Shown piece by piece: positions 21,246 through 62,064 of a stretch of DNA of 64,000 bases (position 1 is its first letter; every line of letters begins with the position of its first letter). A program made the translations under genes and the position numbers. Source of the DNA: Arachis hypogaea (lineage: Eukaryota > Streptophyta > Magnoliopsida > Fabales > Fabaceae); assembly GCF_003086295.3 (NCBI RefSeq), contig NC_092039.1:64984649-65048648 (forward strand), written 5' to 3'. Under the pieces are notes generated by a model. It was not told the DNA's origin. It saw only the letters and a program-made list of their open reading frames with translations, and did no database searches.

Positions 21246-21282
21246 CTTGCTTGGGGACAAGCAAGATTTAAGTTTGGTGTTG
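21246..21282 (+). other. RGGA-loop hairpin and putative polypurine tract of A
   Basis: The hairpin CTTGCTTGGGGACAAGCAAG (21246-21265; 8-bp stem, GGGA loop) is followed after one base by TTTAAGTTTGGTGTTG and the 3' LTR. The position suggests a role in plus-strand priming or 3' end handling. Confidence 0.72.
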
Positions 21283-23416
21283 TGATGACAAGTCATCATA
21301 TACCCATTTTTCAAGCTAATTTCACTTGTTTTGTTAGCATTTATGCACTTTCTTGCATCCTAAGTAAGTGATTTGGAGTGAAAATGCATAACTTCTTTAA
21401 ATCAAGCAACCACCATGAAATTAATGATAATCCATGAGGTTTAAGCTAATTTTAATTGAACTTTAATTGATTTATAAGCCTCTTGAATTTAGTGATACTT
21501 GGAGTGGTTGTTTTGGTTTATTATAGGTGAAGAAAAGAAAAGAAAAGGAAAAGCGTGGCCTAAGAAGTGTGACCTAAGGAAAGGAAAGCGTGGCCAAAGC
21601 CATATGAAGCGTGCCGCATGCTAAGGGGGAGGCAACATTGCCCTCCACAAGGGCAGACTGCCCTCTAGGAGGGCAACATAAGAAAACCAAGAAGAGAAGG
21701 CAACTCTGCCCTGCCCACTACAAGGGCAGAGCACAAAATGTGCCTTGAGACCAAGAGGAAGAGAACATTGCCCTGCCCTTGTGGAGGGCAGAATCGGGCT
21801 CTCCAAGGAAGAAATTCAAGAGAAAAATGTCACCCATGCATGCTACAAGGATCGAACAAGGAACCATGAGGAAGCCAAGAACTAAGGTTGATTGCCGTGC
21901 CAAGAAGCCAAGGAAATTAATTGAATTTGTGCCCAAGCCGTGTTTCGAACACGGGGCGTGGAAAAGGGAACTCTGCCCTGCCCTTGGCGCGGGCAGGGCA
22001 GCATTTGGATTGGTGCAAGATCCTGGCGCATCATGCACGATTCTGGCGCACCAAGTCTCATCCCTGGCAGCATCTGGCGCATCAAAATTCGTCCCTGGCA
22101 GCATCTGGCAGCACCAACTTTTCCTGCCCTGCCCTTCGCGAGGGCAGGGCAGCATCCTGGCGCACCACGCACGAATCTGGTGCAGCAATCTTCGACCCTG
22201 GCAGCACCAACGCGCACACTCCTCGATCTGGCAGCACCACAATTTTCTGCCCTGCCCTTGGCGCGGGCAGGGCAGCGTTTTGCGTTCTTGGCAGCACCAA
22301 GCCGCACCAACACGCACCCAAGCCGCACCAAACTTCCGCACCATGCACCAATTTTCTGCCCTGCCCTCCACAAGGGCAGGGCAGCCTCCTGGGAGTGAAT
22401 TTTCATGGGCCGAAAATTCAAATTAAAACCCCATTTTAATTCATTTCTTCACCAAATCAAAAGCCCATCCAAATCCCAAAATCCAAGAATAGAAAGTGTA
22501 TAAATAGAAGCTAGTTTGATGTAATTAGAAACCTTTTTACCTTCTTTTGAATTTTTACCTTTTGACTTACTTTTGGCTTAGTCTTTGAATTTGCACTTTC
22601 TTTGAGCTTTCTTGAGAGACTTGTCCGAGCACCAAGAGGATCAAGGGAGAATTGATTGATCTCCTTCCTCATTCTTACTTGGGCAATTCTACTCTTCTGT
22701 TTTTGAGTTTTGGGTGTGTGAAATTGAGGAAATTCTGTCTCAATTCCCATTCAAACTCTTTTCAATTTGTTTTCTGCAGAATTGAATCTGATTTCTGTTC
22801 TTCTACTGCTTTCTCTTCTAATTCTTGTCAATTGCTTTGTTAACTTGGATCTAGGAAGGCAAATAGAGATCTAGGCTCTGCTACCTAGTCTCTTGAGACC
22901 TGAGACCCAATTTTACTTTTGGTTCTTCTGTGAACTTCTGCTACATTTTATTTTCTTTCTGTTTGAATGCTATTTGCTTCTGATTCAATTTCTATTCAAT
23001 CAATTGCTGCAATTTACTTCTTCTTTGTTTGGATCCTGCAATCCCATTCCTCAATTCCCTTTTACTTTCTAGCAGTTTAACTTTCTTGCCATTTAAGTTA
23101 CTGCAGTTTATGTTTCTTGCACTTTAAGTTTCAGTCATTTACTTTCTTGTTCTTTAAGATTCTGCAAATTTTACTTTCCTGTTCTTTAATTTACTGCAAA
23201 TTCCCTTCTCCCTTTACATTTACTATCATTTACTTCCTGTTAAACACAAATCACTCAACCAATACTTGATTCGCTTGACTAAATCACCCACTAAACTAAA
23301 ATTGCTCAATCCTTCAATCCCTGTGGGATCGCCCTCACTCATGTGAGTTATTATTACTTGATGCGACCCGGTACACTTGCCGGTGAGTTTTGTGTTGGAT
23401 CGTTTTCCACACATCA
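21283..23416 (+). repeat. 3' LTR of element A
   Basis: It begins TGATGACAAG, directly after the AAGTTTGGTGTTG tract, and ends CACATCA before the GCAGA duplication. It carries the same hairpin array and TATA box (22499-22506) as the left LTR, with about 20 base differences. Confidence 0.92.
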
Positions 23417-23421
23417 GCAGA
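23417..23421. repeat. Right target-site duplication of A (GCAGA)
   Basis: Exact match to 15773-15777. Confidence 0.93.
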
Positions 23422-24430
23422 TTCAAATGGTTTTGAGGTGTTGATAATTAAAAGATAAATAAGACATAAAAATAAGATAGAGATACTTATGTAATTCATT
23501 AGTGGGAATTTCAGATAAGCGTATGGAGATGCTTTATTCCTCCAGAATATCTGCTTTCCTACTACCTTCATCCAGTCATGCACACTCCCTTCCATGGCAA
23601 GCTGTATGTTGGGGGATCACCGTTGCCAATGCCTACCGTCCATCCTCTCAATGAAAATGGTCCGACTACGGGTTACGTAGGGCTAATCATCTGTTGGTTC
23701 TCGATCGTGTCGAAATAAGATTCATTGATCCTTTTGCACACTGTCATTGCACCCAACAGTCACGAGTTTGAAGCTCGTCACATTCATTCCATCCCATATC
23801 CTACTCGGAATACCACAGACAAGGTTTAGACTTTCTGGATCTCAAGAATGCTGCCAATTAATTATAGCTTATACCACGAAGACTCTGATCTCACATAATG
23901 GAAGGCTCTGTTGTCAAGAGAGGCAACCATGCATCGTGAATTAGGAGGCCAAGAGATATACACTCAAGCTCTCACAGATAGAACGGAAGTGGTTGTCAGG
24001 CACGCGTTCATAAGGGAGGATGATGATGAGTGTCACGGATCATCACACCTTCAGGTTGAAGTGCGAGTGAATATCTTAGAATAAGAATAAGCATGAATTG
24101 AATAGAAGAACAATAGTACTTTGCATTAATTCATGAGGAACAACAGAGCTCCACACCTTAATCTATGATGTGTAGAAACTCCACCGTTGAAAATACATAA
24201 GAACAAGGTCTAGGCATGGCCGTAATAACATGAAACAATCGAAAAAGGGTTCAAAGACCTGATCCCAAGATCGAAGATGATCAAAAGATGAAAATACAGT
24301 AGTAAAAGGTCCTATTTATAGTGAACTAGTAACCTAGCATTTATAGAAATAAGTAAATAATGCAGAAATCCACTTCCGGGGCCCGCTTGGTGTGTTCTTG
24401 GGTTGAGCATTAAAGCTTTCACATGCATAG
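23422..24430 (-). repeat. LTR of B, remaining part (right of element A)
   Basis: The reverse complement follows the FIDEL-like LTR at 30697-32444 from about 31190 onward: CTTGGTGTG context, TATAAATAGG (TATA at plus 24313-24320), CCATGCCTAGACCTTG, the AATTCATGC block and CATGGAAG. The first ~500 bp, including the start TGATGAGCGG, are missing; the break near 24430 adjoins the gag of F. Confidence 0.78.
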
Positions 24431-25250
24431 GATTCTCTTGGAAGAATCTAAGGACACAAAGACTTTCCAAGAGGAAGTAAAATCCATTCTGTAGAACCGG
24501 GGGGTTGCCATTAAGAAGCTTGAGGCACAAGTTGGATATCTATCAAAGCAATTCCATACCTATAACTCCTTTAGTGACACCATGGCAAACCCAAGGGAGG
24601 AATCAGAAGAAAAAGAAAAAGAGGCACCCATACCAAGTGAGATTTCTATGAAGAAGGAGGAGGTTGTGAGAATATATAAGCCTAAGGCTCCATACCCACA
24701 GAGGTTACTAGTGGTGACAAAGGAACATGCAAACTCACTCCCAAAAGACTTAATGCAACATCATGTAGAAGAAAGGGAGGAAGTCAATCAAGGGAGCCCA
24801 CACTCCAATGAAACAGAGAGTTGCATAGAGGGTGAGTTCATTGAACCACCAATTCAAGAAGCACTTGATGAAGAGGATGCTCCAACCATCATACGACACC
24901 CAAGTCCTGAAATCAAGGTGGTGAAGGCAATCAACATGAGCACTAAAAAGAGGATGATGACCAAGAAAAGAAGGACAATATCCATGAAGAAGAAAAGGTC
25001 AACCAAAAGCCATCCCATCCCTACCCCAACAAGCAAGTTTACTCAAGCTAACAACAAAAGAAAGCTTGCTGAGGAGAGGCACTCTAAACAAGGGGCATTA
25101 ACTGGCTCCTCTTTCCTCTTGAGGTCATTCCTCTTAACAAACTGGAAGAAGAGGAAGAAAGTCATGAACAACATGTCAAGCTAATGACATTAAAAGAGAG
25201 CTTGTTGGGAGGCAACCCAACCGTAGGTAACATTTTCTTTTCTTGCTTAG
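24431..25250 (+). pseudogene. gag-like C-terminal part of element F
   Basis: Resumes in the frame left at 5310, near ATT 24432. TAG at 24492-24494 interrupts, followed by IKKLEAQVGYLSKQ, then ATG 24582 and a 200-codon frame that is acidic, then basic (KKRMMTKKRRTISMKKKRS). Near 25110-25140 the frame shifts; the other frame continues through the twin hairpin as VKLMTLKESLLGGNPT. No protease or enzyme domain is seen. Probably the C-terminal half of a gag-only protein. Confidence 0.7.
25175..25221 (+). other. Twin-hairpin module of element F
   Basis: GTCA, loop AGCTAA, TGAC (25175-25188), then GTTGGG, loop AGGCAA, CCCAAC (25204-25221). In this copy the module can be read through in one frame, so a coding role cannot be excluded here. 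Confidence 0.75.
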
Positions 25251-26595: not shown

Positions 26596-26632
26596 CTTGC
26601 TTGGGGACAAGCAAGATTTAAGTTTGGTGTTG
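26596..26632 (+). other. RGGA-loop hairpin and putative polypurine tract of F
   Basis: Same 20-nt hairpin as in A (CTTGCTTG, GGGA, CAAGCAAG; 26596-26615), then one base, TTTAAGTTTGGTGTTG and the LTR at 26633. Confidence 0.72.
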
Positions 26633-29270
26633 TGATGCCAAGGCATCTTGGCTAGTTTTACTAGCCATTTTTTGTACGCTTTAGGTTGGTTTCATGCATT
26701 TTCTTAGGAAATAAGCAAGTATTTGTTTGAAAATGCAATCATACCATGATTCAAGCAAACATTGTGAATTTTGAATGATTTCATGAGAATTATGCATGAA
26801 TTGAATGATAAATTAGATGATACATGATCCCATGATTAAGAGCAAGACTTTGATGCACTTTGTTTGATTGATTTCAGGTAACAAGAAGCAGAGAAGAGCC
26901 ACGTTAGTGGATACGTTAGTGCCACTAACGTGGCCATTAACGTGGAAGAAAAAGAGAAGCCCCAACATTAGTGAGAAAGTTAGTGGCATTAACTTTGAAG
27001 AAGGAGAGCATGGAGCGTTAGTGGTAAAAGTGAACGCCACTATCGTTTGCGAAGCAAAGAAGGCCTACGTTAGCTTCCAGGTTAACTACATTAACGTGGT
27101 AGTTAACGTGGAAGGAAAGGGGAACGCCAATGTTAGTGGAAAAAGTGAGTGCCACTAACGTTTGCGAAGCAGAAAGACCCACGTTAACGGGCACGTTAGC
27201 TACATTAATGTGGTAGTTAACGTGGAAGAAAAGGGAGATGCCAACGTTAGTAGAAAAGGTGATCTCCACTAACGTTTGCGAAGCAAAAAAGACCCACGTT
27301 AACGGCCATGTTAACTACATTAACATGGAAGTTAACGTGGGCAAAAATCTCACTTGGCAGCCTGACCATGCCTTCTTCAAACAAGAATAACTTGAGCCAC
27401 AAAACTCCAAATGAGGTGATTCCAAAGAACATTGAAAAGTAGGATTCCAGAGCTTTCCAAGCATATATGGCACTACATGGTGGACACTAAATTTGAGGGA
27501 GAAAACCTGCCCCGAAAGTGCAAGGATGAACATGGTATCAACCTGTAGTAAGGCCAACTGACCTCTTTCTCTTCCAAGAAGTGTAACTCGAGCTCTAGAG
27601 CTCCAATTGATGCGCTTCCAGATGCGTTGGAAAGTAGACATCCAGAGCTTTCCAACAATATATAATAGTATGGGGTGGACATTAAGTTTGAGCTCCAGAA
27701 CCTGGCAACATTAAGCCCCTAGTCGCTAGCGTTATCGTGACTCACGTTTTCCAGTAACGCTAGCGACTGTGCCAGCGACCTTGTCTACTTCAAAGGAGCA
27801 TAACTTGAGTTATAGAGATCCAATTGAGGTGAATCCAGTTGCGTTAGAAAGCTGACATTCAGAGATTTACAAAGATATATAATAGTCTATAGTGGGCATG
27901 AAATTGGAGTACAAACAAGAGGCATCTTTTAAGTCCCAAAAACACCAATTGTTAACAAGTGCAACGTTAGCCACAATAACTTTGCCACTAAGGCCACACT
28001 TGTAGCATTAGTGTGGCTAACGGCAGCATTAACGCTAAGCACTTAGACCTCAACTTGATTCACTTCTCTCTCAAGTCCACTTCAAAGCTCAAGCAAGCAA
28101 GCCCACAATTGTCAATCAATCAAGGCCACAAGAAGCATCTAGAATAGGAATTTTCATTTAATTGTAATTTGCTTTTAATTTCATTTTTTGTAATTTAGGA
28201 GAGCCTATATAAAGGCCTTAGTCTTTACATTCAGGGGGGTCAAAAAAGAAATGGAGAATTGAAGGAAGGGGGAGAGGGTGAAGAACAATTCGAACTTCTG
28301 TGAACTGGCACACTCCAAGGGGAGTGAGTCTTTGGACCCCTCCCCTCAACCACTCTTCTTCCTTTTCTCTTCTTTTCTTCCTTAGGAGTAGTTTCTTTTC
28401 TTCGTACCTTCTATTTATGAATTTTGAAGTTTCAATTTCAGTTTAATCTTCATCTTTATTTTTCTGCACTTTCTTCTTTTCTATTTTAGTAGAGCAATGA
28501 TCAACTAACTCTTTTCATTGGGTTAGAGAGCTCTATTGTGATTCAATGGATCAATTTTAGTTCTTATTCTTCTTCTTTTTTCTTTTCTCTTGATTTTACT
28601 AGAGAGCTTTCGATCTTTATCCAATTGGATAATTGTCTTGGAAGAGAAGTTACTCATACTTGGATTTCCTCGGAACCTTGGAAGAGGAATGAGGAAATCA
28701 TGCTAGAAATGCTCTCTCACATTGGATTAGGTTGGGGGTTGGATGGATATTGTGAAATTTAATCCTACCAATACTTTGATCTATGAATGTGTGTGGTATA
28801 ATCAGTGACCAAACTTCATCTCTTCCCATGAGCAATTAAATCAAGGAATTGGGAAATTGTTCAAGCTTAGAGAGATTGGATTGCCAAGAAATTGGGATCC
28901 AATCACTTAAGATTGCCAAGGAGATCAATGAATGCATTGATTGAGGAAGAGATGAGAATGAACTTGATCTGGAGGATTGCAATATCTCTTGATCCCAATG
29001 TTCATTTTATTTTTAGTTCTTACATTTACTTTTCTTGCCATTTTACTTTTCTGCACTTTATTGCTTTCTTTACTTTTATGCCATTTACATTTCCTTGTTA
29101 CTTATCACTCTAATATGATTCGTCTAACTAGGATAATCAATTAACCATTGATTGCTTAATCCGTTAATCTCTGTGGGATTCGACCTCACTCTTTTGTGAG
29201 TTATTACTTGACGATAATTCGGTATACTTACCGAAGGGAAATTTGTTGAGAGACAAGTTTTCAAGCATCA
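26633..29270 (+). repeat. 3' LTR of element F
   Basis: Begins TGATGCCAAGG, ends AAGCATCA; 2,638 bp. It repeats the palindrome array (26895-27340), the triplicated block (about 27385-27490, 27580-27690, 27795-27905) and TATATAAA (28206-28213) of the left LTR. Confidence 0.88.
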
Positions 29271-29275
29271 ATTTC
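29271..29275. repeat. Right target-site duplication of F (ATTTC)
   Basis: Partner of 2026-2030 with one mismatch. Confidence 0.75.
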
Positions 29276-30696: not shown

Positions 30697-32444
30697 TGAT
30701 GAGCGGATAATTTATACGCTTTTTGGCATTGTTTTTACATAGTTTTTAGTATGATTTAGTTATTTTTTAGTATATTTTTATTAGTTTTTAAGCAAAATTC
30801 ACGTTTCTGGACTTTACTATGAGTTTGTGTGTTTTTCTATGATTTCAGGTATTTTCTGGCTTAAATTGAGGGACCTAAGCAAAACTATGATTCAGAGGCT
30901 GACAAAGGACTGCTAATGGTGTTGGATTCTGACCTCCCTGCACTCAAAATGAAATTTGTTGAGCTACAGAAGTTTAAATGGCACGATTTCAATTGCGTTG
31001 GAAAGTAGACATTGAGGGCTTTCTAGAAATATATAATAGTCCATACTTTGCTCGAGTTTAGATGACGCAAACTGGCGTTTAACGCCAACTTTCTGCCCTA
31101 TTCTGGCATCAAACGCCAGAAACAAGTTGCAAACCAGAGTTAAACACCAGAAACAAGTTACAAACTGGCGTTTAACTCCAAGGAAGGCCTCTACACGTGA
31201 AAGCTTCAATGCTCAACCCAAGCACACACCAAGTGGGCCCAGAAATGGATTTCTGCATCATTTACTTAATTTTGTAACCCTAGTAACTAGTTTAGTATAA
31301 ATAGAACTTTTTACTATTGTACTAGGGGTCTTTTTCTCTATTTTCAAATTCATATGCCATTTAGGGAGGCTGGCCATTCGGCCATGCCTAGACCTTATTC
31401 TTATGTATTTTCAACGGTGGAATTTCTACACACCATAGATTAAGGTGTGGAGCTCTGCTGTTCCTCAAGTATTAATGCAAAGTACTACTATTTTCTATTC
31501 AATTCATGCTTATTCTTATTATAAGATATCCATTCGCACACAAGAACATGATGAATGTGATGATTATGTGACACTCATTACCATTCTCACTCATGAACGC
31601 GTGATTGACAACCACTTCCGTTCTACATAAAGATAAGCTTGAATGTATATCTCTTGGGTTTCTAGTCAAAGATTCACATCGACTCCCCTCTGACAATGGG
31701 GCATCTGAATCCGAGATTAGAGTCTTCATGGTATAGGCTAGAATCCATTGGCAGCATTCCTGAGATCCAGAAAGTCTAAACCTTGTCTGTGGCATTCCCA
31801 GTAGGATCTGGGATGAGATGACTGTGACGAGCTTCAAACTCGCGAGTGTAGGGCGTGGTGAAAGACGCAAAAGGATAATAAATATTATTCCTACACGATC
31901 GAGAACCAACAGGTGATTAGCCATACGATATCTATGCATGGTATTTTTCATCCGAGACGAGAAATCCGACAGTTGATTAGCTGTACATAAACCGTAGAGG
32001 ACCATTTTCATTGAGAGGATGGGAAGTAGCCATTGGCAACAGTGACGCCCAACTTACAGCTTGCCATGGAAAGGAGTATGAAGGATTGGAAGAAGACAGT
32101 AGGAAAGCAGAGATTCAAAAGGAGTGAGGCATCTCCATACACTTATCTTAAATTCCCACCAATGAATTACATAAGTATCTCTATCTTTATTTTATGCTTA
32201 TTTATCTTTTAATTTATTAAAACTCCATAACTAGTTGAATCCGCCTGACTGAGATTTACAAGGTTACTATGGCTTACTTTAAGCCGACAATCTCCGTGGG
32301 ATCGACCCTTACTCACGTAAGGTTTATTACTTGGACGACCCAGTGCACTTGATGGTTAGTTGTGCGAAGTTGTAAAAAAGAGTTGAGATTACAATTGTAC
32401 GTACCAAGTTGTTGGCACCATTGAGATCACAATTTCGTGCACCA
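30697..32444 (+). repeat. FIDEL-like LTR (apparently solo) without target duplication
   Basis: Begins TGATGAGCGG and ends TTTCGTGCACCA. It contains the shared GTTGGAAAG block (30955-31060), GGCGTTTAACGCC palindromes (31070-31185), TATAAATAG at 31296 and, near 32403-32420, a primer-site-like remnant (ACCAAGTTGTTGGCACCATT). Flanking pentamers CTCAC and TAGTG do not match, and P pol does not resume to the right, so it is a product of recombination or deletion rather than a clean solo LTR. The frame at 31499-32011 (minus) is not a gene. Confidence 0.82.
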
Positions 32445-33606: not shown

Positions 33607-33992
33607 TCCTTTTTCTTGGAGAACTCATCACCATCCTTCTTCTTTGTGGAGGCTCCTTGTCTTTGCAAGTTACCTCCCAATCCACGTTAATGGTAACGTT
33701 AATTAGATTAACGTGACTGCTAAGTGGTTCTTCCTTGCTTCCTTTGGTCCTGAAATCAAGCAATAGAGTGCATCAAAGTTCTAGTCCAAGTCATGGGTAA
33801 TGCAACATACAATTTGTTATTAAACTCATGCAAAATCCTCATGAAATCATGTAAAATTTACAATGTATGCTTGAATCAAGGTGTAAGTGAATATCTACCT
33901 AAAACTAGCTTATTTCCTAAGGAAATGCATGAAACTACCTTAAAAACAGTAAAGAAATGGTCAATGAAACTGGCCAAGATGCCCTGACATCA
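33607..33992 (-). repeat. Truncated 3' LTR of G
   Basis: Positions 33660-33992 match 45540-45875 closely (TTGCAAGTTACCTCCCA, ACGTTAATTAGATTAACGT). Only the first ~335 bp of the LTR remain. 33607-33655 is a junction of unclear origin. Confidence 0.72.
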
Positions 33993-35148
33993 CAACACCA
34001 AACTTAAAGCTTGCTTGTCCCTAAGAAAGTACTGGAACAAGAGAATGATGAATGGAATGCCAAGAGAAATGAGTCATACTTGTGGAAGTCATGTCACTGA
34101 TTTTATGGTGGTTTCATGCTTAGCAACTTAGGTTCATTCCATTACTGGCTTTCAGACCTTTATCATGTCCTAAAACACTGATTTTGCTTACATCCCATGA
34201 GACTTTTATTGATCCTTTTATTGTCATTCCAGGGCTTATTTCTGTTCTTCAAGCTAAGTGCTCTGTAAGGGGGCAACTCTTTAAGATAAGCTTTCAGCTA
34301 ACACTCCCGAACCAGTTGGTTCAAGGTGTTAGGTGTTGAGACACCCCTAAGGACTTACTCCCTCAAATCTCTCCCCCATACATACACACCACAGGCATCT
34401 GGTTCATTTATTTTCCTTCTTGAGACCTTGGTGTCCAGCACCTCTTTGGGTTACTAAATGCTCTGTAGTGAGGGTTACTCTTGATAGTGGACTTTCAGCT
34501 AATAATCCCGAGTTAGTTAACCCAAGTTACCAAGTGATAAGGCACCCCTAAGAGCTTATTCATCCAAGTAAATCCCTCACACAGGAACACCACAGACACA
34601 TGCCTCAAGATTAAAACCATTGGTGCCTAGCCTTATTGCTTACTCTTTTTCTTTTGTTTTTCACTTTAAGTGTTCTTTCCCTTTCTCTTATTAGGATCTT
34701 GTTATTTACTTAGTCTCATGGGTATATTCAAAGTATAGTATTCAGGCCAGATAGTTGTCATTCCCACCTTATGGTTGAACCAACTTAGCTAACTTATGAT
34801 CACACCAAAGACTCATGAATACACTTCCATATTATGAACTCCACTCTGGTCTATTTAAAACACAATCATTCTCTTTTTCATTTGATTTAAAAGACAGGCA
34901 TACAATAAGTAAAGATATGATGCAGTTACATAAAGACTAGCAAGCATAGACTTTTTCAACAGAAAACTTAAATTGCATAATTGAACTAGGTTACAATCAC
35001 ACATGACTATTAATTAACAGTGCATTCGGACTTCCAATTTTTAACACGATGAGTAGATGGAATTAAGTAGCAATACAACCTTTGGGAGATGGTTTGCCAC
35101 ACCAATCCAGTTGCCTTCTTGTTATCATTGTCATAGTTTTTGATGCCT
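33993..35148 (-). other. 3' non-coding region of G (left of the MULE)
   Basis: Next to the LTR is CAACACCAAACTT (reverse of the AAGTTTGGTGTTG tract) and a decayed RGGA hairpin at 34010-34029 with two arm mismatches. The conserved block occurs twice (about 34250-34400 and 34440-34610; AGGGGTG, GTGGTGTTCC, AACTAACTCGGG on the minus strand), once per copy of a tandem duplication. No coding. Confidence 0.6.
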
Positions 35149-46057: not shown

Positions 46058-48017
46058 ATGAACTCTCACCCCTTTGGCTATGAATCTGGTTACAACTATG
46101 TTGGAGGAAGAGGAAGTTATAACAGGAATATGCATCAAGGTCAAAGCAATCGAAGATGGACGGAGCCAAGAGGAGCTGATCAACCCTTTTGGCGACAACA
46201 CCTTCCAAGATATCATGGACAAAGACCATTCTATAATGCATACCAAGCTGATAGATATGGTGGACCCCCTTGTAGTTACCAACAATCCCTATCATATGCC
46301 AATGAACCACCTCCTCAACATAGCTTTGAACCACCACACTCATAAGTCCTTTTCCACCATTCACCTCCATATGACCCCAATCCTTATTTACCACACCAAC
46401 CACCAAATGAACCATACACAGAACCACCACCTCAATATACACCATCTCCTTATCATTATCAAGATGAACCACCTTCCTACCATGAACCCTTTCTCCCAAC
46501 AAATGAACCCTCCTATCCACCCCAAACCTCTATGAAGAAAGCATTTGCCGATCTAAACTCTACTATACAAGCTCTCGCCATCCAAATCGGACCACTAAAT
46601 ACCTTCAACAATAAACCCTCAAGCTCTAGTGCACTTCCTTTTCAACCACAGAATAATCTCTCCATCCCATCACCACCATCCATGGAAGAGCATCCACATC
46701 CATCAATCCAAGAGCAACATGATCCCAACGATACGATTAACATGGAACAAGAGAGAGAGGATCATCTTCGCGAATCCATACTTCATAAGGAGCTAGAGGA
46801 GGCACTAAAGGTGAAAGTAGTAGAGACCCTTGAAGTTGACAGCGCGGTTGAAGAACTAGTGAAGGAAGACAACAAGGAGGATTTTGTACTTAAAGGTGAA
46901 GAAATAGTTGATTAGGAAATCATCAAGGATGAATACGATTTCATACTTAAACACCTAGATCAAGCAATAAATCGATTACCTTTCCGACATTTGGGCATTC
47001 AAAGAACCCCCATGGCTTCATGTGGAGAATCTACTGAAGAACGTAGCAGGAAGGAGAAGTTAGGCACTTCGGTGGATAGTGAGCAGCACGATTTGGTATT
47101 GGAACAAGTGGAGGAAGCCGAAATTATTGAAGAAGAAGAAGTGGTTGAAGACTTAGGAGATGCTGAACCTCCATGGGAAAGTCAAGTTATAGAGCCTCCT
47201 TCAAAGACGTTTGAAACTGATGTTGAGGAGGGTGTACAACCTCCAAAGCATATCATGGTTGAAGACTTTGAAAGAGAACGATCAAGAGATGGATTTAATC
47301 ATTAATGAATTCTTATCTACAATTGCATTCTCTCCCATTGAACTTGACATGGAGATTAAAGAAGAAGAAGCACAACCTCCCATGCCCTTGGTAAACAATA
47401 AAGAAGAAATTGAATCAGAAGAAAGCTACCAAGAGGAAGAGGTTGAAATTGAAGAAGCTTGCAAAGAGGTGGAAGATGTCAAAGAAGAGCACAAAGGAGT
47501 GGATCTTGCAATTTCATTAGAAACCCCTCCCCCTAAGTTGCCATCACCCTTCACAACATTCAAGTGGGTAAAATTCATATCCCTTAGCTTTCTAATTTCA
47601 CTTGAATATGGGCTACTGGAGACGGATGGTCAACTTAGAGCTCTTTGTGGCATTAAGAGTAAGAGGAAGATGGTCAGTGGTAAGAATTGCCCTGCAAGGT
47701 TCATTATGGTTGGAAGTTTTAAGTTTAAATGCAAAGGTTGGTATAGAGCTCAACTAAATGGGTCTAAGAAGTTGTTTGGCCGCTTCAGTGAGAATTCAGA
47801 CTGCTTGCAACCCGGATGGAATCATGATAATCAACTTGAAGATGGGTGTAGAAACAAGATTTGGGATATAGGAATATATGAGGATCAACTTTGGGAGCTC
47901 GAAGCTTGTGGAGAATTTCATCAACGCTTGGTAAATTTACTTGGTATTGATAGAGCTTATTGGAAGTCCAAGCATTGGTGGAAGTTTCAAGATGAGTTCA
48001 AGCACAAGCCACCATGA
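46058..48017 (+). pseudogene. gag-like protein of H with an unassigned Trp-rich C-terminal domain
   Basis: One frame from ATG 46058 with TAA at 46343-46345 and TAG at 46913-46915, then a frameshift near 47270-47285 to the frame that ends with TGA 48015-48017; about 650 codons. The N-terminal part is Gly/Tyr/Gln/Arg-rich (YGYESGYNYVGGRGSYNR style), then Pro/His-rich. The middle is acidic (EEEVVEDLGDAEPPWES). The last ~135 residues are well folded in appearance: KNCPARFIMVGSFKFKCKGW, YRAQLNGSKKLFGRF, LQPGWNHDN, WDIGIYEDQLWELEACGEF, LVNLLGIDRAYWKSKHWWKF. I recognise no known domain. It occupies the same place as the GPY/F module in A and G, just before the twin hairpin. Confidence 0.6.
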
Positions 48018-49668: not shown

Positions 49669-49669
49669 A

Positions 49670-49709
49670 TGCACCGAGGACGGTGCAATCTTTAAGTGTG
49701 GGGAGGTCG
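49670..49709 (+). other. RGGA-loop hairpin and internal purine tract of H
   Basis: TGCACCG, AGGA, CGGTGCA (49670-49687), then ATC and TTTAAGTGTGGGGAGGTCGA. It is almost the same tract that precedes the 3' LTR at 51142-51159, but 1.45 kb upstream of it. Confidence 0.7.
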
Positions 49710-51120
49710 ATACCGATCTCCACGGGTTAGTTATTATCTTCTCAACACTAATATTCTATTCTCTTTGTTTTTTCATTGTTGCATTGCATAATAGATTGCA
49801 TATGTAGTTGATTGTTTGTATTTAGTTACTACTTATTTGAAGTAATATTTTCTTTTTCAAGAAATTTTTATAGTATTTCACTAATTTAAATTGAAAAATT
49901 TGTGTTAAACTTGTTTGGAAGTTGTATTTAGAACATAGTTTTTGAGCCAAAGAACACACAACCTGTGAGATTTGAGCTTATTTACATGGTTACATTATTT
50001 AACCATAAATTTTTATTCTTGTGTGTTTTCTTCTCTATGATTGCAATCGTTGCTTTGTTCCATTCTATATGTCCATTATTTAGTGTATGTACATGCTTGC
50101 ATATGATTGAGGCCATATTTGATTATTAACTCACTTATCCCAAATAAAGCCTACCCTTTTATGTCACCCTTGTTAGCCACCTTGAGCTTTTTACTCCCCT
50201 TTTGTTTTATAACCACATTACTAGCCTTAAGCAGAAAAACAAAATAAAAATCCCAAGTTGAATTCTTAGTTAGCTTAAGATAGATATTGTGTATAATTTA
50301 AGTGTGGAGAATTTTATGGGAACATGGGATGATAGAAAAAAGTAGGGAATTAAAGTGAATAAATTATTTGAAATTTGGGAGCATGCTCATGTGAAACCAA
50401 AATAATTAAAACACCATGTGCATTGATATATTATTCTTATGTTTCAAAAAAAAAGAGAAAAAAAAGAAAAAAGAAATTCATTAAGAAATTAAATAAGGGG
50501 ACAAAAATTACCCCAATGCAAAAATTAAAGAATCAATGCACATGGGATAAAATAAAAAATAAAATTGGTGCATGAGTATGTAACATACAAGTGGGAAAAT
50601 TGGGCAGCTAGGCAAGATTTCTAGATTATATAGAGTATGTATATGTTAGGTGACATCTTAGACTAATCAAGGGTTCAATTATTAGCTCACTTAGCCTTAT
50701 ATATATACCCTTACCCTTATCTTAGCCCCATTACATCCTTGAAAAAGACCTCATGATGTTTGTATGTATATATTAAATATTTGTTGATTGGTTAGATGAA
50801 GAACAAAGTTTAGAAAGCATGATTAGAGAAGAATAGAGTGATTACCCTATACGCTAGAGAGACTAGAGTGATATACACTACCAGTGAGGGTTCAATGCTT
50901 GATTTTATGTTCCCTGCTTTCATAAGCTATCTTCTTACAAGTTTACTTGTCTTTTATTGTGCAATTTGAATTAGTGAAATTTGATCATATTTGTCTTGGA
51001 GAACTTATTTACTTTTAACCAAGTAGGTAGAAACATTTTGCATGTAGTTGCATTCACATAGGTAGGTTGCATTGCATACATTCTATCATTCCTCTTCACT
51101 CCCTTTTAGTTCTCTTGAGC
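49710..51120 (+). other. 3' non-coding region of H
   Basis: AT-rich, with an A-rich run at 50440-50475 and a block near 50780-50900 (CTATACGCTAGAGAGACTAGAG). Nothing coding recognised; the 66-codon frame at 50375 is low-complexity. Confidence 0.5.
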
Positions 51121-51159
51121 TTAGCATGAGGACATGCTAATGTTTAAGTGTGGGGAGGT
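51121..51159 (+). other. RGGA-loop hairpin and polypurine tract at the 3' LTR of H
   Basis: TTAGCATG, AGGA, CATGCTAA (51121-51140), two bases, then TTTAAGTGTGGGGAGG and the LTR. The purine run AAGTGTGGGGAGG is a credible polypurine tract for plus-strand priming. Confidence 0.8.
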
Positions 51160-52646
51160 TGATAAACCACTATTTTATGGTTTATATTGTGCTAAATTGA
51201 GTGGATTTTATCAATCTTTCATACACTTATTCATACTAATTGCATGAGTTTACGTTTTCCTTCCTGATTTTGTGCTATGATTGAAAACATGCTTCTTTGG
51301 CTTTTATTTTCTTTTATTTGAATCCTCTCTTATTATCATTTGATGCCTTGATATGTGTGTTAAGCGATTTCAGGGATTACAGGGCAAGAATGGCTTAGAG
51401 GATGGAAACGAAGCATGCAAAATTGGAAGGAATACAAGAAGTTGAAGAAATTGCTAAGCTGTCCAACCTGACCTCTTTGCACTCAAATGGCCATAACTTA
51501 AGCTACAGAGGTCCAAATGATATGGTTCCACTTGCGTTGGAAAGCTAACATCTGGGGCTTCGATTTGATATATAATTCTTTATAGTGCTGTATAGATAGG
51601 CGACGCGAACGCGCGCTCCACGCGGACGCATCGCATCTGCGAACTTCAATCCACGCAAACGCGTGGATGACACCTCTGCGTCACTATGCTGCAATCTGTA
51701 CGGACCAGAAAGTGCTGGGAGTTACTTCTGGGCTGTTTTTGACCCAATTCTCGGCCCAGAAAACAGAGATTAGAGGCTGGGAGTGGAGCAGAATCAAATC
51801 ATTCAATTATTACTCACAATTTTAGGTTTTAGATGTAGTTTTTAGAGAGAGAGGTTCTCTCCTCTCTCTTAGCATTTAGGATTAGGATTTCTATTAGGAT
51901 TAGGATTGTTTCTTCTTACCAGGTTCAATAATTTATGTTTCTCTTCTATTTTTGTTTACTCTGAAGCTTTTATTTGTGTTTGATTTATGTTGCCCATTTG
52001 GCTTATGAATATTTTCCATGTTAGAATTGACATCTCCATTTAGTTTAATTTGAGATATTTCAATTATTTATGATTTTTATCTAGCTTTTTATATTCTTGC
52101 CTTTAATTGATTAATTGGTAACTCTTGAGTTGTCAAACTCATTGTCGACTGAAAATTGGAATTCTTCAAAAATTAACTTGAGTTCCAATAACTCTAGCCT
52201 TTTCCAAGGAAAGACTAGGACCTGAGGAACCAAACTTATTCCATCCACTTGACTTACCTTCATAGTTAGAGGTTAACTTAGTGGGAGAAAAATTCAATTT
52301 TCATCACAATTGATAAGGATAACTAGGATAGGACTTCCAGTTTTCATACCTTGCCAAGAGTTTTATTAGTTATTAATTTTTAATTCTTGCAATCTATTTC
52401 TCTTGCTTAAAACCTTTTTCAAACCCAAACACTGTTTTTCCATAACCAATAATAAATCATACTTCCCTGCAATTCCTTGAGAAGACGACCCGAGGTTTGA
52501 ATACTTCGGTTTATAAATTTATTGGGTTTTGTTATTTATGACAACCAAAATGTTTGTACAAAGGGATTTTCTGTTGGTTTAGAATCTATACTCACAACAC
52601 GACTATATTTTTACAAAATTCTTTACTGGCAAAAATCCTAACGTCA
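51160..52646 (+). repeat. 3' LTR of element H
   Basis: Begins TGATAAACCAC, ends CTAACGTCA (1,487 bp). Includes the shared GTTGGAAAG block (51475-51590), a CGCG patch (51600-51690) and the AGAGAGAGGTTCTCTCCTCTCTC inverted repeat near 51845-51870. Confidence 0.8.
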
Positions 52647-52892: not shown

Positions 52893-54560
52893 TGGTGGAC
52901 GAAATTGTGATCCTCTTTGTATTTGCATGAGATTTATTTAATGGCTATTGACTATATGTGGACACAACTCCGTTCAACTTAACCAGCAAGTTTACTGGGT
53001 CATCCAAGTAATACCTTACGTGAGTAAGGGTCGATCCCACAGAGATTGTTGGTATGAAGCAAGCTATGGTCACCTTGTAAATCTCAGTTAGGCAGATTAA
53101 ATGGTTTATGATAAGTTCGAAAATAAATAATAGAAAATAAAATAGTAAATAGTTACTCATATAATTCCATGGTGGGAATTTCAGATAGGCATATGGAGAT
53201 GCTGTACTCCTCTTGAATCTCTACTTTCTTAGTACATTCATCCAATCCTTCTTACTCCTTTCCATGGCAAGCTGTATGTAAGGCATCACCATTTTCAATG
53301 GCTACATCCCATCCTCTCAGTGAAAATGGTCCTATGCTCTGTCACAGCACGGCTAATCATCTGTCGGTTCTGAATCAGGTTGGAATAGAATCCCTTGATT
53401 CTTTTGCGTCTGTCACTAACGCCCAGCCTTCAAGAGTTTGAAGCTCATCACAATCATTCAATACCGAAAATCTTACTCGGAATACCACAGACAAGGTTTG
53501 ACTTTCCAGATTCCCAGAATCCTACTCGAAATACCACAGACAAGGTTAGACTTTTTGGATTCCCATGAATGCCGCCATCTATCTAGCTTATACCACGAAG
53601 ATTCTGTTGGGGAATCTAAGAGATATGCGCCCGGCCTAAGGTAGAACGGAAGTGGTTGTCAGTCACGCGCATTCATAGGTGAGAATGATGATGAGTGTCA
53701 CGGATCATCACATTCATCAAGTTGAAGTGCAACGAATATCTTAGAATAGGAATAAAGAGAATTGAATAGAAAGTAATAGTAATTGTATTGAAACTTGAGG
53801 TACAGCAGAGCTCCACACCCTTAATCTATGGTGTGTAGAAACTCCAACGTTGAAAATACATAAGTGAAAGGTTTAGGCATGGCCGAATGGCCAGCCCCCA
53901 TGATCTGAGAACTAAACGTCCAAAGATGTCTAATACACTAGTAAAAAGTCCTATTTATAATAAACTAGCTACTAGGGTTTACATGAGTAAGTAATTGATG
54001 CATAAATCCACTTCCGGGGCCCACTTGGTGTATGTTTGGGCTGATCTTGGTCTATCCACGAGCTGAGGCATTTTATTGGAGTTGAACGCCAAGTTGTAAC
54101 GTGTTTTGGGCATTCAACTCCGGGTCGTGACGTGTTTCTGGCGTTTTACTCCAGATAGCAACATGGAACTGGCGTTGAGCGCCAGTTTACGTCATCAATT
54201 CCCGAATAAAGTATGGACTATTATATATTGCTGGAAAGCTCTGGTTGTCTAATTTCCAACGCCATTGAGAGCGCGCCATTTGGAGTTTTATAGCTCCAGA
54301 AAATCTATTTCGAGTGAAGGGAGGTCAGATTCCAACAGCATCAGCAGTCCTTTGTTAGCCTCCTTCTCAGAGTTTTGCTCAGGTCCCTCAATTTCAGCCA
54401 GAAATTACCTGAAATCACAGAAAAACACACAAACACATACTAAAGTCCAGAAATGTGAATTTAACATAAAAACTAATGAAAACATCCCTAAAAGTAGCTT
54501 GAACTTACTAAAAACTACCTAAAAATAATGCCACCAAGCGTATAAATTATCCGCTCATCA
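52893..54560 (-). repeat. 3' LTR of C (FIDEL-like)
   Basis: Minus-strand start TGATGAGCGG, end TTCGTCCACCA; 1,668 bp. Contains the GTTGGAAA block (54204-54320), GGCGTT palindromes (54075-54190) and TATTTATA (TATA, plus 53952-53959). A tandem duplication of about 60 bp (AATACCACAGACAAGGTT) is seen at 53465-53560. Confidence 0.85.
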
Positions 54561-54598
54561 CAACACCAAACTTAACTTGTTGCTTGTCCCCAAGCAAC
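54561..54598 (-). other. RGGA-loop hairpin and putative polypurine tract of C
   Basis: The minus strand reads GTTGCTTG, GGGA, CAAGCAAC (54579-54598), three bases, TTAAGTTTGGTGTTG and the LTR. The outer pair is G-C where A and F have C-G. Confidence 0.74.
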
Positions 54599-56815: not shown

Positions 56816-57252
56816 GATGGGAGGTAGCCACTGACAACGGTGAAACCCTTGCTTGAGCTTGCCATGGAAAGGAGTAAGAAGGATTGGATGAAGACAGTAG
56901 GAAAGCAGAGAGATGGAAGGGACAAGCATCTTCATACGCTTATCTGAAATTCCAACCAATGAATTACATAAGTATCTCTATCTTTATCTTTATGTTTTAT
57001 TCGTATATCACCCATATCCATTTGAGTTTGCCTGACTAAGATTTACAAGGTGACCATAGCTTGCTTCATACCAACAATCTCTGTGGGATCGACCCTTACT
57101 CGCGTAAGGTTTATTACTTGGACGACCCAGTACACTTGCTGGTTAGTTGTGCGAAGTTGTGTTTATGCCATGGTATTGAATACCAAGTTTTTGGATTCAT
57201 TACCGGGGATTATTTGAGTTGTGAAAAGTATTGATCACAATTTCGTGCACCA
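56816..57252 (+). repeat. Truncated 5' LTR of D
   Basis: Matches the last ~440 bp of the LTR at 30697-32444 (GAGCTTGCCATGGAAAGGAG, GGGATCGACCCTTACTC) and ends TTTCGTGCACCA. It contains an extra primer-site-like copy at 57186-57210. Confidence 0.82.
57192..57210 (+). other. Second, decayed primer-site copy inside the LTR end
   Basis: ACCAAGTTTTTGGATTCATT, then ACCGGGGAT, repeats the layout of the true LTR-end/primer-site junction about 67 bp upstream of it. A shorter trace is in the LTR at 32403-32420. Confidence 0.7.
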
Positions 57253-57258
57253 AGTTTT

Positions 57259-57277
57259 TGGCGCTGTTGCCGGGGAT
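57259..57277 (+). other. Primer binding site of D (tRNA-Asp type)
   Basis: TGGCGCTGTTGCCGGGGAT, one difference from A and G; 6 nt after the LTR end. Confidence 0.82.
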
Positions 57278-58894
57278 TGTTGAGTTTGGACAACTGACGG
57301 TTCATCTTGTTGCTTAGATTAGGTATTTTTTTTCGGAATTCTTGAAGATGAATTCTAGAGTTTCATGATGATTTGTTGAAGTCTGGCTGGCTGTAAAGCC
57401 ATGTCTAATTTCATTGGACCGAGGTTTCAACTTATCATCACAAGAGCTTGTTGATTTTTATCAATCTTGCTGTTGGAGCAGTGATCTGCTAAGGCTTGGC
57501 TGGCCATTGGCCATGTCTAGTGTTTTGGACCGAAGCTTTCCTTGAAAGCTTGGCTGGCTGTGAAGCCATGTCTAATTCCTGGACCGGAGTCTTAGACTAG
57601 CATTGCACTGATTCCTGGAATTCTCATTAAGAATTATGATACCTTTATTTTCTTTTTCCACTTAATTTTCGGAAAAAGCACAAAAAAAATTTACAAAGTC
57701 ATAAAATCCAAAAATATTTCTTGTTTGAGTCTAGTGTCTCATGTTAAGTTTGGTGTCAATTGCATGCATTCATTCATGTGTCTTAGTGATCTTCAAGATG
57801 TTCTTGATGATTTCTTACTCTAATCTTTATATTCTCTTGACTTGAGTGTTTTGTGTGTCTCATATGCATTCTCATTTTACTAGTGTCAGTAGTATACAAA
57901 CTGCTAAGTTTGGTGTCTTGCATGCATTGTTATTTGATTCTTGTTGCATTTTGATTTTTCCTTATTATTAAAAATCCAAAAATATTTTTAATTTGTGTCT
58001 TCTCAAGTCAATAATACAGAGAATTGAAGATTCAGAACATACAGCAGAGAAATTACACAGAAAAAGCTGGGCGTTCAAAACGCCCAGTGAAGAAGGACAG
58101 ACTGGCATTTAAACGCCAGCCAGGGTACCTGGTTGGGCGTTTAACGCCCAAAAGGGTAGCATTTTGGGCGTTAAACGCCAGAATGTGCACCATTCTGGGC
58201 GTTTAACGCCAGGATGGCACAAGAGGGAAGATTCTATTTTCAATGCAATTTTTTTCAAATTTTCAAAGTTTTTCAAAATCAAATCTTTTTCAAATCATAT
58301 CTTTTCAATCATATGTTTTCAAAATCAATTACTTTCCACTTTCAAAGATACTTGCTATCAATTAATAATTTGGTTCAACATTTCAAGTATGTTGCCTTTT
58401 CTGTTGAGAAAGGTTTAATGTTTGAATCATATCTTTTCTTGATAGCCAAGTCATTGATTTTCAAAATCAAATCTTTTTAAAAAGTTTTTCAAATCATATC
58501 TTCTCAATCACATCTTTTTAAAACTAATCATATCTTCTTAACCACATCTTCTTCAAAATAGTTTTCAACCATATCTTTTTAATTTCTAATTTCAAAATCT
58601 TTTTCAAAAATCACTTGATCTCTTTCCCACTCTTGGTTTTCGAAAATTAATTAGTGTTTTTCAAAAATGTTTTCAAAATCTTTTACTTAATTTTCGAAAA
58701 TTACTTCCCTTCTTCTCACATCCTTCTATATATGAACTAACACTATTCCTTAATGCAAAATTCGAACTCCATCTTCTTTGATAAGTTCGAATTTTCTACT
58801 TCTGTCTTCTATTTTTCTTTTCCTCTGACACCTCAGGGAATCTCTATACTGTGACATAGAGGATTCCACATTTTCTGGTTCTCTTCTCTTTCTT
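57278..58894 (+). other. Leader of D with palindrome array
   Basis: Non-coding. Three GGCTGGC/GCCATGTC repeats lie at 57380-57580 (TTGGCTGGCTGTGAAGCCATG type), then AAGTTTGGTGT at about 57745 and 57903. Five GGCGTTTAACGCC-type palindromes are at 58066-58215, followed by repeated AAATCTTTTTCAAATCATAT. Overlapping short frames are ignored. Confidence 0.65.
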
Positions 58895-61234
58895 ATGAGC
58901 AGGAGCAGAGACAAAAGCATTCTTGTTGAGGCTGATCCTGAACCTGAAAGGACCTTGAAGCGAAAGCTAAGAGAAGCTAAGGCACAATTCTCTGTAGAGG
59001 ACCTAACAGAAATCTTCAAAGAAGAAGAACTCATGGCAGCCGAAAACAACAACAATGCCAACAATGCAAGGAAGGTGCTGGGTGACTTTACTGCACCTAC
59101 TCCCGACTTCTATGGGAGAAGCATCTCTATCCCTGCCATTGGAGCAAACAATTTTGAGCTTAAGCCTCAATTAGTTTCTCTAATGCAACAGAATTGCAAG
59201 TTCCATGGACTTCCATTGGAAGATCCTCATCAGTTTTTAGCTGAATTCTTGCAAATATGTGACACTGTCAAGACTAATGGGGTTGACCCTGAGGTCTACA
59301 GACTTATGCTATTCCCTTTTACTGTAAGAGACAGAGCTAGGACATGGTTGGACTCACAACCTAAAGAAAGCCTGGACTCTTGGGAAAAGCTAGTCAATGC
59401 CTTCTTGGCAAAGTTCTTTCCACCTCAAAAATTGAGTAAGCTTAGAGTGGAAGTCCAAACCTTCAGACAGAAGGAAGGAGAATCCCTCTATGAAGCTTGG
59501 GAAAGATACAAACAATTAATCAGAAAGTGTCATTCTGATATGCTTTCTGAATGGAGCATCATAGGTATTTTCTATGATGGTCTCTCTGAACTGTCCAAGA
59601 TGTCTTTGGATAGCTCTGCTGGAGGATCTCTTCATCTGAAGAAGACGCCTACAGAAGCTCAAGAACTCATTGAAATGGTTGCAAATAACCAATTCATGTA
59701 CACTTCTGAAAGGAATCCTGTGAACACTGGGACTAATCAGAAGAAATGAGTTCTTGAGATTAATACTCTGAATGCCATATTGGCTCAGAACAAAATATTG
59801 ACTCAACAAGTCAATATGATTTCTCAAAGTCTGTTTGGAATGCAAAATGCACCAAGCAGTACTAAGGAAGCTTCATCTGAGGAAGAAGCTTATGATCCTG
59901 AGAACCCTTCAATGGAAGAGGTGAATTACATGGGAGAACCCTATGGAAACACCTATAATCCTTCATGGAGAAATCATCCAAATTTCTCATGGAAGGATCA
60001 ACAGAGACCTCAACAAGGTTTCAACAATAATAATGGTGGAAGAAACAGGTTTAGCAATAGCAAGCCTTTTCCATCATCTTCTTAGCAACAGACAGAGAGT
60101 TCTAAGCAGAATACCTCTGACTTAGCAACCATGGTCTCTGATCTAATCAAAACCACTCAAAGTTTCATGACTGAAACAAGGTCCTCCATTAGAAACTTGG
60201 AGGCACAAGTGGGTCAGCTGAGCAAGAAAATTACTGAACTCCCTCCTAGTACTCTTCCAAGCAATACAGAAGAAAATCCAAAAGGAGAGTGCAAGGCCAT
60301 CAACATGGCCGAATTTTGGGAGGAAGGAGAGGCAGTGAACGCCACTGAGGAAGACCTCAATGGACGTCCACTGGCCTCCAATGAGTTCCCCAATGAGGAA
60401 CCATGGGAATCTGAGGCTCAAAATGAGACCATAGAGATTCCATTGGACTTACTTCTGCCATTCATGAGCTCTGATGAGTATTCTTCCTCTGAAGAGGATG
60501 AGTATGTCACTGAAGAGAAAGTTGCTAAATACCTTGGAGCAATCATGAAGCTAAATGACAAGTTATTTGGAAATGAGACTTGGGAGGATGAACCCCCTTT
60601 GCTCACCAAAGAACTGGATGACTTGTCTAGGCAGAAACTGCCTCAAAAGAGACAGGATCCTGGGAAGTTTTCAATACCTTGTACCATAGGCACCATGACC
60701 TTCAAGAAGGCCTTGTGTGACTTAGGGTCAAGTGTAAACCTCATGCCTCTCTCTGTAATGGAGAAGTTAGGGATCTTTGAGGTGCAAGCTGCAAAAATCT
60801 CACTAGAGATGGCAGACAACTCAAGAAAACAAGCCCATGGACTTGTAGAGGATGTTCTGGTAAAAGTTGAAGACCATTACATCCCTACTGATTTTATAGT
60901 CCTAGAGACTGGGAAGTGCATGGATGAATCCATCATCCTTGGCAGACCCTTCCTAGCCACAGCAAAGGCTGTGATTAATGTTGATAGAGGAGAGTTGATC
61001 ATTCAAGTGAATGGAGAATCCTTGGTGTTTAAGGCCCAAGGATATCCCTCTACCACCATGGAGAGGAAGCATGAAGAGCTTCTCTCAAAACAGAGCCCCC
61101 ACAGTCAAACTCTAAGTTTGATGTTGGGAGGCCACAACCAAACTCTAAGTTTGGTGTTGAACCCCCACATTCAAACTCTAAGTTTGGTGTTAGGAGGTTC
61201 CAACATTGCTCTTAGCATCTGTGAGGCTCCATGA
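58895..61234 (+). pseudogene. gag-protease polyprotein of D (two in-frame stops)
   Basis: One frame of 780 codons from ATG 58895 to TGA 61232-61234, with TGA at 59747-59749 and TAG at 60086-60088. Domains: basic N-terminus; gag core (about residues 85-235: LMLFPFTVRDRARTWLDSQP, FLAKFFPPQKLSKLRVEV, SLYEAWERYKQLIRKC); Asn/Gly/Gln-rich segment (NHPNFSWKDQQRPQQGFNNN) with no CCHC knuckle; coiled LEAQVGQLSKK; acidic SSSEEDEYVTEE; retropepsin-like domain with CDLGSSVNLMPLSV, then SIILGRPFLATAKAVINVD. The tail contains three repeats of QTLSLMLGG type, because AAACTCTAAGTTTGGTGTT is translated. Two point changes separate it from an open frame; it is inactive as it stands. Confidence 0.85.
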
Positions 61235-61243
61235 GAGTACTCT

Positions 61244-61290
61244 GTCAAGCTACTGACATTAAAGAAGCGCTTGTTGGGAGGCAACCCAAT
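61244..61290 (+). other. Twin-hairpin module of element D
   Basis: GTCA, loop AGCTAC, TGAC (61244-61257), then GTTGGG, loop AGGCAA, CCCAAT (61273-61290). It starts 9 nt after the stop and is in the gag frame, so readthrough would translate it. Confidence 0.77.
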
Positions 61291-61426
61291 GTTATATTTT
61301 ATCTATTTTTGTTTGTTATTTTATGTTTTTTGTAGGTTGATGATCATGAGAAGTCACAAAATCAATGAAAAAAGCAAAAATAGAATGAAAAACAGAAAGA
61401 AAAATAGCACACCCTGGAGGAGAGCA

Positions 61427-61606
61427 TGCTGGCGTTTAAACGCCAGTGAGGTTAGCTGTTGGGCATTTAACGCCTAGTCTGGCACCATTCTGGGCGTTTA
61501 ACGCCAGAAAGGGGCACCAGACTGGCGTTAAACGCCAGAAAAGGGCAAGAAGCTGGCGTTAAACGCCAGAAATGGGCACCAGCCCGGCGTTTAACGCCAG
61601 AAATGG
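61427..61606. repeat. Palindrome array downstream of gag in D
   Basis: Five units spaced about 40 bp: CTGGCGTTTAAACGCCAG, GGGCGTTTAACGCCAG, CTGGCGTTAAACGCCAG (twice) and CCGGCGTTTAACGCCAG. The arms are constant; the centre varies between TTTAA, TTAAA and TTTAAA. Confidence 0.85.
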
Positions 61607-61901
61607 CTAAAAACGCATTTTTGCATGCCATTTGGTGCAGGGATGACTTTTCCTTGACACCTCAGGATCTGTGGACCCCACAGGATCCCCACCTACCCCA
61701 CCACTCTCTCTCTTCTTCACCCATTCACCAATCACCTCAACACCTCTTCCCCAAAAACCCTTCACCTATCAAATCCCATATTTCTCTTCACCACTCACAT
61801 CCATCCTTCATAAAACCCCACCTACCTCACCATTCAAATTCAAACCACTTTCCCACCCAAACCCACCCATACATGGCCGAACATCACCCTTCCCCCTCTC
61901 C

Positions 61902-61909
61902 TATATAAA
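61902..61909 (+). promoter_or_regulatory. Possible internal promoter (TATATAAA) before the second ORF of D
   Basis: TATATAAAC lies in a C-rich context after a CA/CT-rich tract and is followed by a CT-rich, leader-like 190 bp before ATG 62103. This resembles an ordinary plant core promoter and 5' leader rather than LTR sequence. Confidence 0.45.
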
Positions 61910-62028
61910 CCCATCTTCACTCCTTCATCTTCACACAACCTAAACACTACTTCTCCCCCTTCTTGGCCGAACACAAAAGCCATTCCCTTCTTCCTCATTT
62001 CTTCTTCTTCTACTCTCTTCTTTCTTCT

Positions 62029-62064
62029 TTTGCTCGAGGACGAGCAAACATTTTAAGTTTGGTG
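62029..62064 (+). other. RGGA-loop hairpin and purine-type tract before the second ORF of D
   Basis: TTTGCTCG, AGGA, CGAGCAAA (62029-62048), two bases, TTTTAAGTTTGGTGTGG. It lies 40-55 nt before ATG 62103, not next to an LTR. Confidence 0.72.

Follow-up and report, generated by a model that had tools for sequence, protein, structure and literature searches.

The window analysed here is a stretch of 64,000 nucleotides (nt) from peanut, Arachis hypogaea (contig NC_092039.1, forward-strand positions 64,984,649 to 65,048,648), and the subject is a short hairpin with an RGGA loop that stands directly upstream of the motif TTTAAGTKTGG in retrotransposons bounded by long terminal repeats (LTRs). Seven copies had been predicted from the sequence and all seven are read at their predicted coordinates; five of them, again as predicted, abut an LTR and are called terminal, while those at 49670 and 62029 are internal. 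For three of the five LTR-abutting copies the paired 5' LTR also lies inside the window. The copies and the sites that bear on them are the following.

21246 to 21265, plus strand: terminal hairpin of 8 base pairs (bp), loop GGGA, minimum free energy -11.6 kcal/mol, z -3.05
21266 to 21282, plus strand: candidate primer tract, A followed by TTTAAGTTTGGTGTTG, the 17 nt between this hairpin and the LTR
26596 to 26615, plus strand: terminal hairpin of 8 bp (9 with 26595/26616), loop GGGA, LTR start at 26633
34010 to 34029, minus strand: terminal hairpin, decayed, LTR start at 33992 (minus)
49670 to 49687, plus strand: internal hairpin of 7 bp, loop AGGA, upstream of TTTAAGTGTGGGGAGG
50297 to 50307, plus strand: third TTTAAGTGTGG, without hairpin, between two hairpin copies
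51121 to 51140, plus strand: terminal hairpin of 8 bp, loop AGGA, 19 nt before TGATAAACC, the start of a presumed LTR at 51160
54579 to 54598, minus strand: terminal hairpin of 8 bp, loop GGGA, 18 nt before the LTR start at 54560 (minus)
62029 to 62048, plus strand: internal hairpin of 8 bp, loop AGGA, upstream of TTTTAAGTTTGGTGTGG

Perfectly complementary arms around an RGGA loop, claimed for the copies in general, are present in six of them (7-9 bp), but the copy at 34010, already listed as decayed in the prediction, has two arm mismatches, one of which is the loop-closing pair. The assigned stem lengths hold with the qualification that 26596 extends to 9 bp if 26595/26616 is counted and that 49670 has 7 bp. 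When the copies are folded as RNA, six of the seven have the hairpin as their minimum-energy fold or within it, the exception being 34010. In all seven the tract follows both arms. When the window was scanned for RGGA loops closed by perfect stems of 7 bp or more, six hairpins were returned, every one directly upstream of TTAAGTKTGG; 100 first-order Markov sequences contained 0.12 such hairpins on average, two at most, and in no case was one adjacent to the motif. Four more TTAAGTKTGG sites in the window, at 6955, 15217 (minus), 50297 and 57744, have no RGGA hairpin, so that the coupling between hairpin and motif is strong but not universal. At 57744 (plus) and 15217 (minus) the motif belongs to TTAAGTTTGGTGTCAATTGCATG, which lies upstream of gag in an element type bearing the domain PF20167, and is preceded by a similar TTTGAGT stretch without a perfect hairpin.

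All plant data come from a single genome, the window's own, which is of Arachis type and comprises 2.557 Gb. Three patterns that fix both loop and tract and differ in the right arm before TTTAAGTKTGG gave 85,784, 15,062 and 2,798 matches in it (103,644 altogether, the counts being lower bounds for large families), whereas the reversed patterns used as controls gave 0, 5 and 1. The predicted coupling of the hairpin to TTTAAGTKTGG at the LTR edge is confirmed by two kinds of terminal junction that were chosen without reference to the hairpin, about 90% of which carry GRGGAC in the expected place, followed by 7-13 nt and then the tract: 44,924 of 49,860 junctions of the first kind (90.1%) and 11,557 of 12,888 of the second (89.7%). 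Among the first 30 C1 loci of the first kind, 25 form all eight pairs and 28 combine an RGGA loop with at least six of the eight, the two exceptions being L088, in which the loop is one base shorter, and L089, in which the left side is replaced. Stretches from scans of viral and prokaryote contigs in IMG/VR and GTDB (at least 120 and at least 119), which serve solely as a chance control, contained no unbroken stem of at least 5 bp around the loop at any of 241 GGAC-N6-16-TTTAAGTKTGGKG sites, and no hairpin-bearing copy was present among the matches listed from these scans.

The original prediction held that the stem varies with full covariation, as expected of a selected structure. The 98 loci and the window together yielded 110 distinct TTAAGTKTGG sites, and in 93 of these an RGGA-like loop is present whose closing bases are G and C or T; these 93 sites form 20 flank-families, each represented by its first member, and the closing base is the only respect in which they were selected by arm pairing. 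Over the inner seven positions of the 20 families, 117 of 140 pairs are Watson-Crick, while permuting the right arms gave a mean of 65.6 and a maximum of 96 in 20,000 permutations, a test in which four chance-like families were retained. In an alignment of 17 representatives over eight pairs (leaving out L056, L061 and window 15217 and keeping L033), 87.5% of the cells are paired against 57.1% after shuffling, the covariation score is 0.722 against 0.208, and 41 cells are doubly changed against 15.4, with none of 500 shuffles as high in any of the three; alignments slid out of register pair at 24-41%. Both sides have changed between families in seven of the eight stem pairs, the eighth, loop-closing pair being uninformative because the selection of the loci largely fixed it. 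One locus pattern bars C at one stem position and is thus biased against pairing.

The genome counts agree with this. Before TTTAAGTTTGG, the pair second from the loop is C-G in 9,584 copies and T-A in 47,674, but C.A in 461 and T.G in 443. Mismatch and wobble are therefore equally rare and are read as neutral decay after insertion, which suggests that pairing is maintained in the replicating lineages rather than in the resident copies. Compensating changes thus exceed the controls on three of five alignment measures, in the permutation test and in the genome pair counts, as is the case for a selected RNA structure, and the prediction stands on this point.

The distance from the end of the hairpin to the LTR start is 17, 17, 17, 19 and 18 nt for the copies at 21246, 26596, 34010, 51121 and 54579, respectively, if 8 pairs are counted. 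Across 23 distinct contexts with at least six unbroken pairs it is 18 nt in 14 and ranges from 16 to 20, where the pattern allowed about 13-23. The tract in between had been taken for a polypurine tract (PPT). Its position before the 3' LTR indeed suits a plus-strand primer, but purines make up 7 of the 16 positions of TTTAAGTTTGGTGTTG and 11 of the 16 of TTTAAGTGTGGGGAGG, and the TTTAAGTTTGGTGTTG group is not purine-rich in the sense that defines a PPT. The tract of this group may work like a PPT, yet by composition it is none. Similarity between families reaches beyond the motif and falls off at about the LTR edge: in a profile of 16 families (leaving out L033, L056, L061 at 483 and window 15217), numbered with the first T of TTAAGT as 0, positions 10-15 behind TTTAAGTKTGG hold 1.0, 1.66, 0.59, 0.73, 1.33 and 0.99 bits, position 16 holds 0.09 bits and the columns beyond mostly less than 0.5, with single columns up to 0.7. 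On the same numbering the first LTR base of terminal copies is at position 15 or 16. In 17 of the 18 upstream columns from -26 to -9 the most frequent base is T or C.

Internal copies share hairpin and tract with the terminal ones and diverge from them beyond. Those of the GCTCGRGGACGAGC type have a terminal copy on the same strand within 4 kb downstream in 28 of 32 listed cases, 24 of them at 1.99-2.21 kb, whereas one has a terminal copy upstream and none has one on the opposite strand. For the CGGTGCA-like kind, to which the window pair 49670/51121 belongs, 30 of 74 listed copies have a downstream terminal copy, all at 1.38-1.66 kb, against one upstream and two on the opposite strand. The 32 copies are the first 32 of 100 listed and the 74 were picked by eye as CGGTGCA-like from 100 listed; the terminal copies were taken as exact matches from the first 100 places, which are all on C1, so that the pairing counts are lower bounds for that stretch. 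This recurrent second copy, the narrow distance between hairpin and LTR and the tract group that is not polypurine add to the original prediction, in which they were absent. Two internal copies, L079 at 92 (minus) and L082 at 84 (minus), have in common a loop AGGG instead of AGGA.

In the GCTCGRGGACGAGC kind an extra open reading frame (ORF) starts shortly past the internal copy, and PF20167 is found behind the internal copy in L004, in L007 and in the window, where it reads as follows.

62103 to 63228, plus strand: extra ORF past the hairpin at 62029, first ATG 50 nt after TTAAGT, with the ORF at 62275-63228 matching PF20167

The window frame that starts at the ATG at 62103 stays open for 30 codons only. 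Homologues of the extra ORF number 53; 52 of these proteins carry PF20167, and those with a name come from Arachis or Stylosanthes. For the CGGTGCA-like kind, no open frame of at least 70 amino acids lies between the window hairpins (49700-51120). An extra TTTAAGTGTGG or TTAAGTGTGG site without an RGGA hairpin recurs in this element type, about 600 nt past the internal hairpin in those loci that include the latter, and is seen at 50297 in the window and in L017 (2111), L018 (2112), L019 (2129), L024 (2129), L028 (2114), L030 (2092), L038 (2126), L042 (662), L051 (1007) and L056 (734).

With regard to the host elements, the terminal copy at 21246 belongs to the best delimited one.

21283 to 23416, plus strand: 3' LTR of the element 15778-23416, whose 5' LTR (15778-17911) is 99% identical by self-comparison

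This element is flanked on both sides by the 5-bp target duplication GCAGA and carries, behind its 5' LTR, tggcgccgttgccgggga, a candidate for a primer-binding site of the Athila type with a putative tRNA-Asp identity. Self-comparison of the window gave further LTR pairs at about 2031-4546/26633-29274 and, with minus-strand starts, at 45875/33992; an LTR start related to that at 54560 (minus) lies at 30697 (plus), and no second copy of the presumed LTR at 51160 is present in the window. The LTR start TGATGAGCGGATAATTT presumably resembles that of FIDEL-type Arachis retrotransposons. The LTRs of the outer element contain 114-nt tandem repeats (2207-2600 and 26894-27287). At 58829-63228 a gag frame (PF03732) and, after it, a frame with a weak protease match precede the internal hairpin and the PF20167 ORF; no reverse transcriptase frame was found between them, which makes this type of element appear non-autonomous. 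The frames at 46502-48014 have no Pfam domain at E 0.01, and those of their homologues that have names are uncharacterised proteins of Arachis and Stylosanthes. Named protein neighbours are mostly from Arachis, with a few from Stylosanthes.

The structure of the hairpin, its position, its distance from the LTR and its second copy are established directly, and pausing, cutting and priming are what we infer from them. During minus-strand synthesis, reverse transcriptase (RT) would copy U3 and then the tract until it meets the base (3' arm) of the RNA hairpin, where it would pause; RNase H, located about 18 bp behind, would then cut the RNA at the border between tract and U3 and so define the 3' end of the plus-strand primer. 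The primer would be chosen by structure more than by purine content, and the internal copy would act as a further origin of the plus strand, comparable to the additional PPT reported for Athila4 and Calypso. With 7 purines in 16 positions, something besides a purine run should therefore mark the tract of the TTTAAGTTTGGTGTTG group. RT of human immunodeficiency virus type 1 (HIV-1) cuts 18 bp behind its polymerase site according to a passage of PMC3185654, and pausing within the HIV-1 PPT is proposed there to allow time for the PPT/U3 cut, a passage in which no hairpin is mentioned. For Sireviruses, a passage of PMC2829016 argues that secondary structure near the PPT is possibly necessary for PPT processing. 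On balance, hairpin and tract of 16-17 nt (TTTAAGTTTGGTGTTG or TTTAAGTGTGGGGAGGT) are probably a plus-strand priming cassette of several related retrotransposon families, which are themselves probably Ty3-type, and the hairpin may act in element copying as a signal for pausing or measuring. That a hairpin ruler stands in place of a PPT altogether, with an RT stall, an RNase H cut about 18 nt downstream, a largely non-purine primer and two origins per element, in retrotransposons that rank among a plant genome's most numerous, is a more speculative extension that we put forward tentatively and regard as rather doubtful.

Several points weigh against the priming cassette or narrow its base. The plant genome is a single one, and copies inside one family are not independent; the family representatives are few and partly related to each other. 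The loci L001-L068 were found with patterns fixing GRGGAC and TTTAAGTKTGG, so that identity at these positions is no evidence. Two of the five alignment measures, the number of pairs with a double change (235 of 500 shuffles) and the number of pair types (195 of 500), do not exceed the shuffles. The TTTAAGTGTGG site at 50297, the third of its kind, lies between two hairpins and has none itself. Furthermore, the two active sites of Ty3 RT are about 13 bp apart according to a passage of PMC5371799, a spacing that fits 18 nt only if the enzyme halts several nt before the stem.

A further such point is the position of the first ATG, 43-52 nt after TTAAGT in 12 of 16 TTTAAGTTTGG-type internal sites (leaving out L002, which is the same place as L001, the chance-like L033, and L040/L041, which are terminal with a changed LTR start). 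This suits a leader or splice function, and the internal copy could accordingly be a leader, a splice-acceptor region or the site where a subgenomic RNA for the extra ORF begins, the terminal copy being a relic of that module. The frame behind it bears PF20167 in L004 and L007, and splicing is reported for barley Bagy2 in a passage of PMC7264820. However, elements of the TTTAAGTGTGG type retain the internal hairpin without a 70-amino-acid frame behind it in the window, and terminal copies are placed before the LTR, which leaves this explanation improbable. It is unlikely, though it deserves some weight, that the hairpin serves packaging, dimerisation, nuclear export or stability as an RNA signal in the 3' region of the genomic RNA and lies near the LTR only secondarily. 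Protein-binding sites typically combine a fixed loop with a free stem, and the loop is GGGA or AGGA in 28 of 30 loci picked by the tract alone, but the distance to the LTR start is narrow, and the shared block takes in the tract and stops at about the LTR edge.

The element might instead act as DNA, as a cruciform or as a hairpin in the minus-strand complementary DNA, for example as a stop or recombination site, given that an inverted repeat can form on either strand. Its one-sided placement before the tract suits RNA copying better and GGGA is a GNRA-type RNA loop, so that we assign this a low probability, although wobble (443) and mismatch (461) are equally rare and RNA and DNA pairing are therefore not separated by the pair counts. 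The pairing might also reflect common descent in the absence of selection, or a palindrome that arose by chance and spread in a few families, a view that draws on the fact that many copies are closely related and some of the 20 family representatives inter-related; it is very improbable, since seven of eight pairs have changed on both sides between families with differing flanks and a 5-bp stem occurs in none of the 241 sites outside plants.

The choice of the second-strand start by RT is usually credited to the purine tract, and with a covarying hairpin at a narrow distance before a tract without purine enrichment, a structural rule becomes testable. In practical terms, the hairpin is a sharp mark for annotating the 3' ends of elements, and as a cis signal it has more than 100,000 matches in one crop-type genome, in which the elements are very abundant.

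For the hairpin itself no earlier description was recognised among the matches listed in the open-licence literature, a scope outside which Wright and Voytas 2002 falls; the same matches included no paper on a FIDEL PPT or hairpin. The word "hairpin" is absent from PMC11963269, PMC1142308, PMC6317226, PMC2410132, PMC10508981, PMC2829016 and PMC3185511. The claim that the hairpin had no earlier description is at most tentative and is weakened by two systems described in passages of PMC2829016, the inverted repeat of Sireviruses and the extra PPT of Athila4 and Calypso.

The PPTs of retroviruses and Ty3 are primer sites at the U3 edge, where the peanut tract is a candidate for one, and HIV-1 and Ty1 have a second, internal site (passage in PMC2829016), while a passage of PMC5371799 states that no central PPT is known for Ty3. 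They differ in that their tracts are nearly all purine, the exceptions named in the relevant passage of PMC3185511 being single pyrimidines. Athila4 and Calypso are Ty3-type plant elements for which one extra PPT is cited, situated in the linker that separates pol from the 3' LTR; the citing passage (PMC2829016) names no hairpin for it. Sireviruses, which are of the Ty1/copia type, share the suggested role: they have several PPTs, and the terminal one coincides exactly with an inverted repeat that is proposed to aid primer formation (passage in PMC2829016). The seven window copies do not fit the layout of this repeat, both of their arms preceding the tract. In the Sirevirus repeat the LTR contains the right arm and the loop contains the PPT, whereas both arms of the peanut hairpin precede the tract, and while the upstream PPTs of Sireviruses are without the repeat, the internal copies in peanut have the hairpin.

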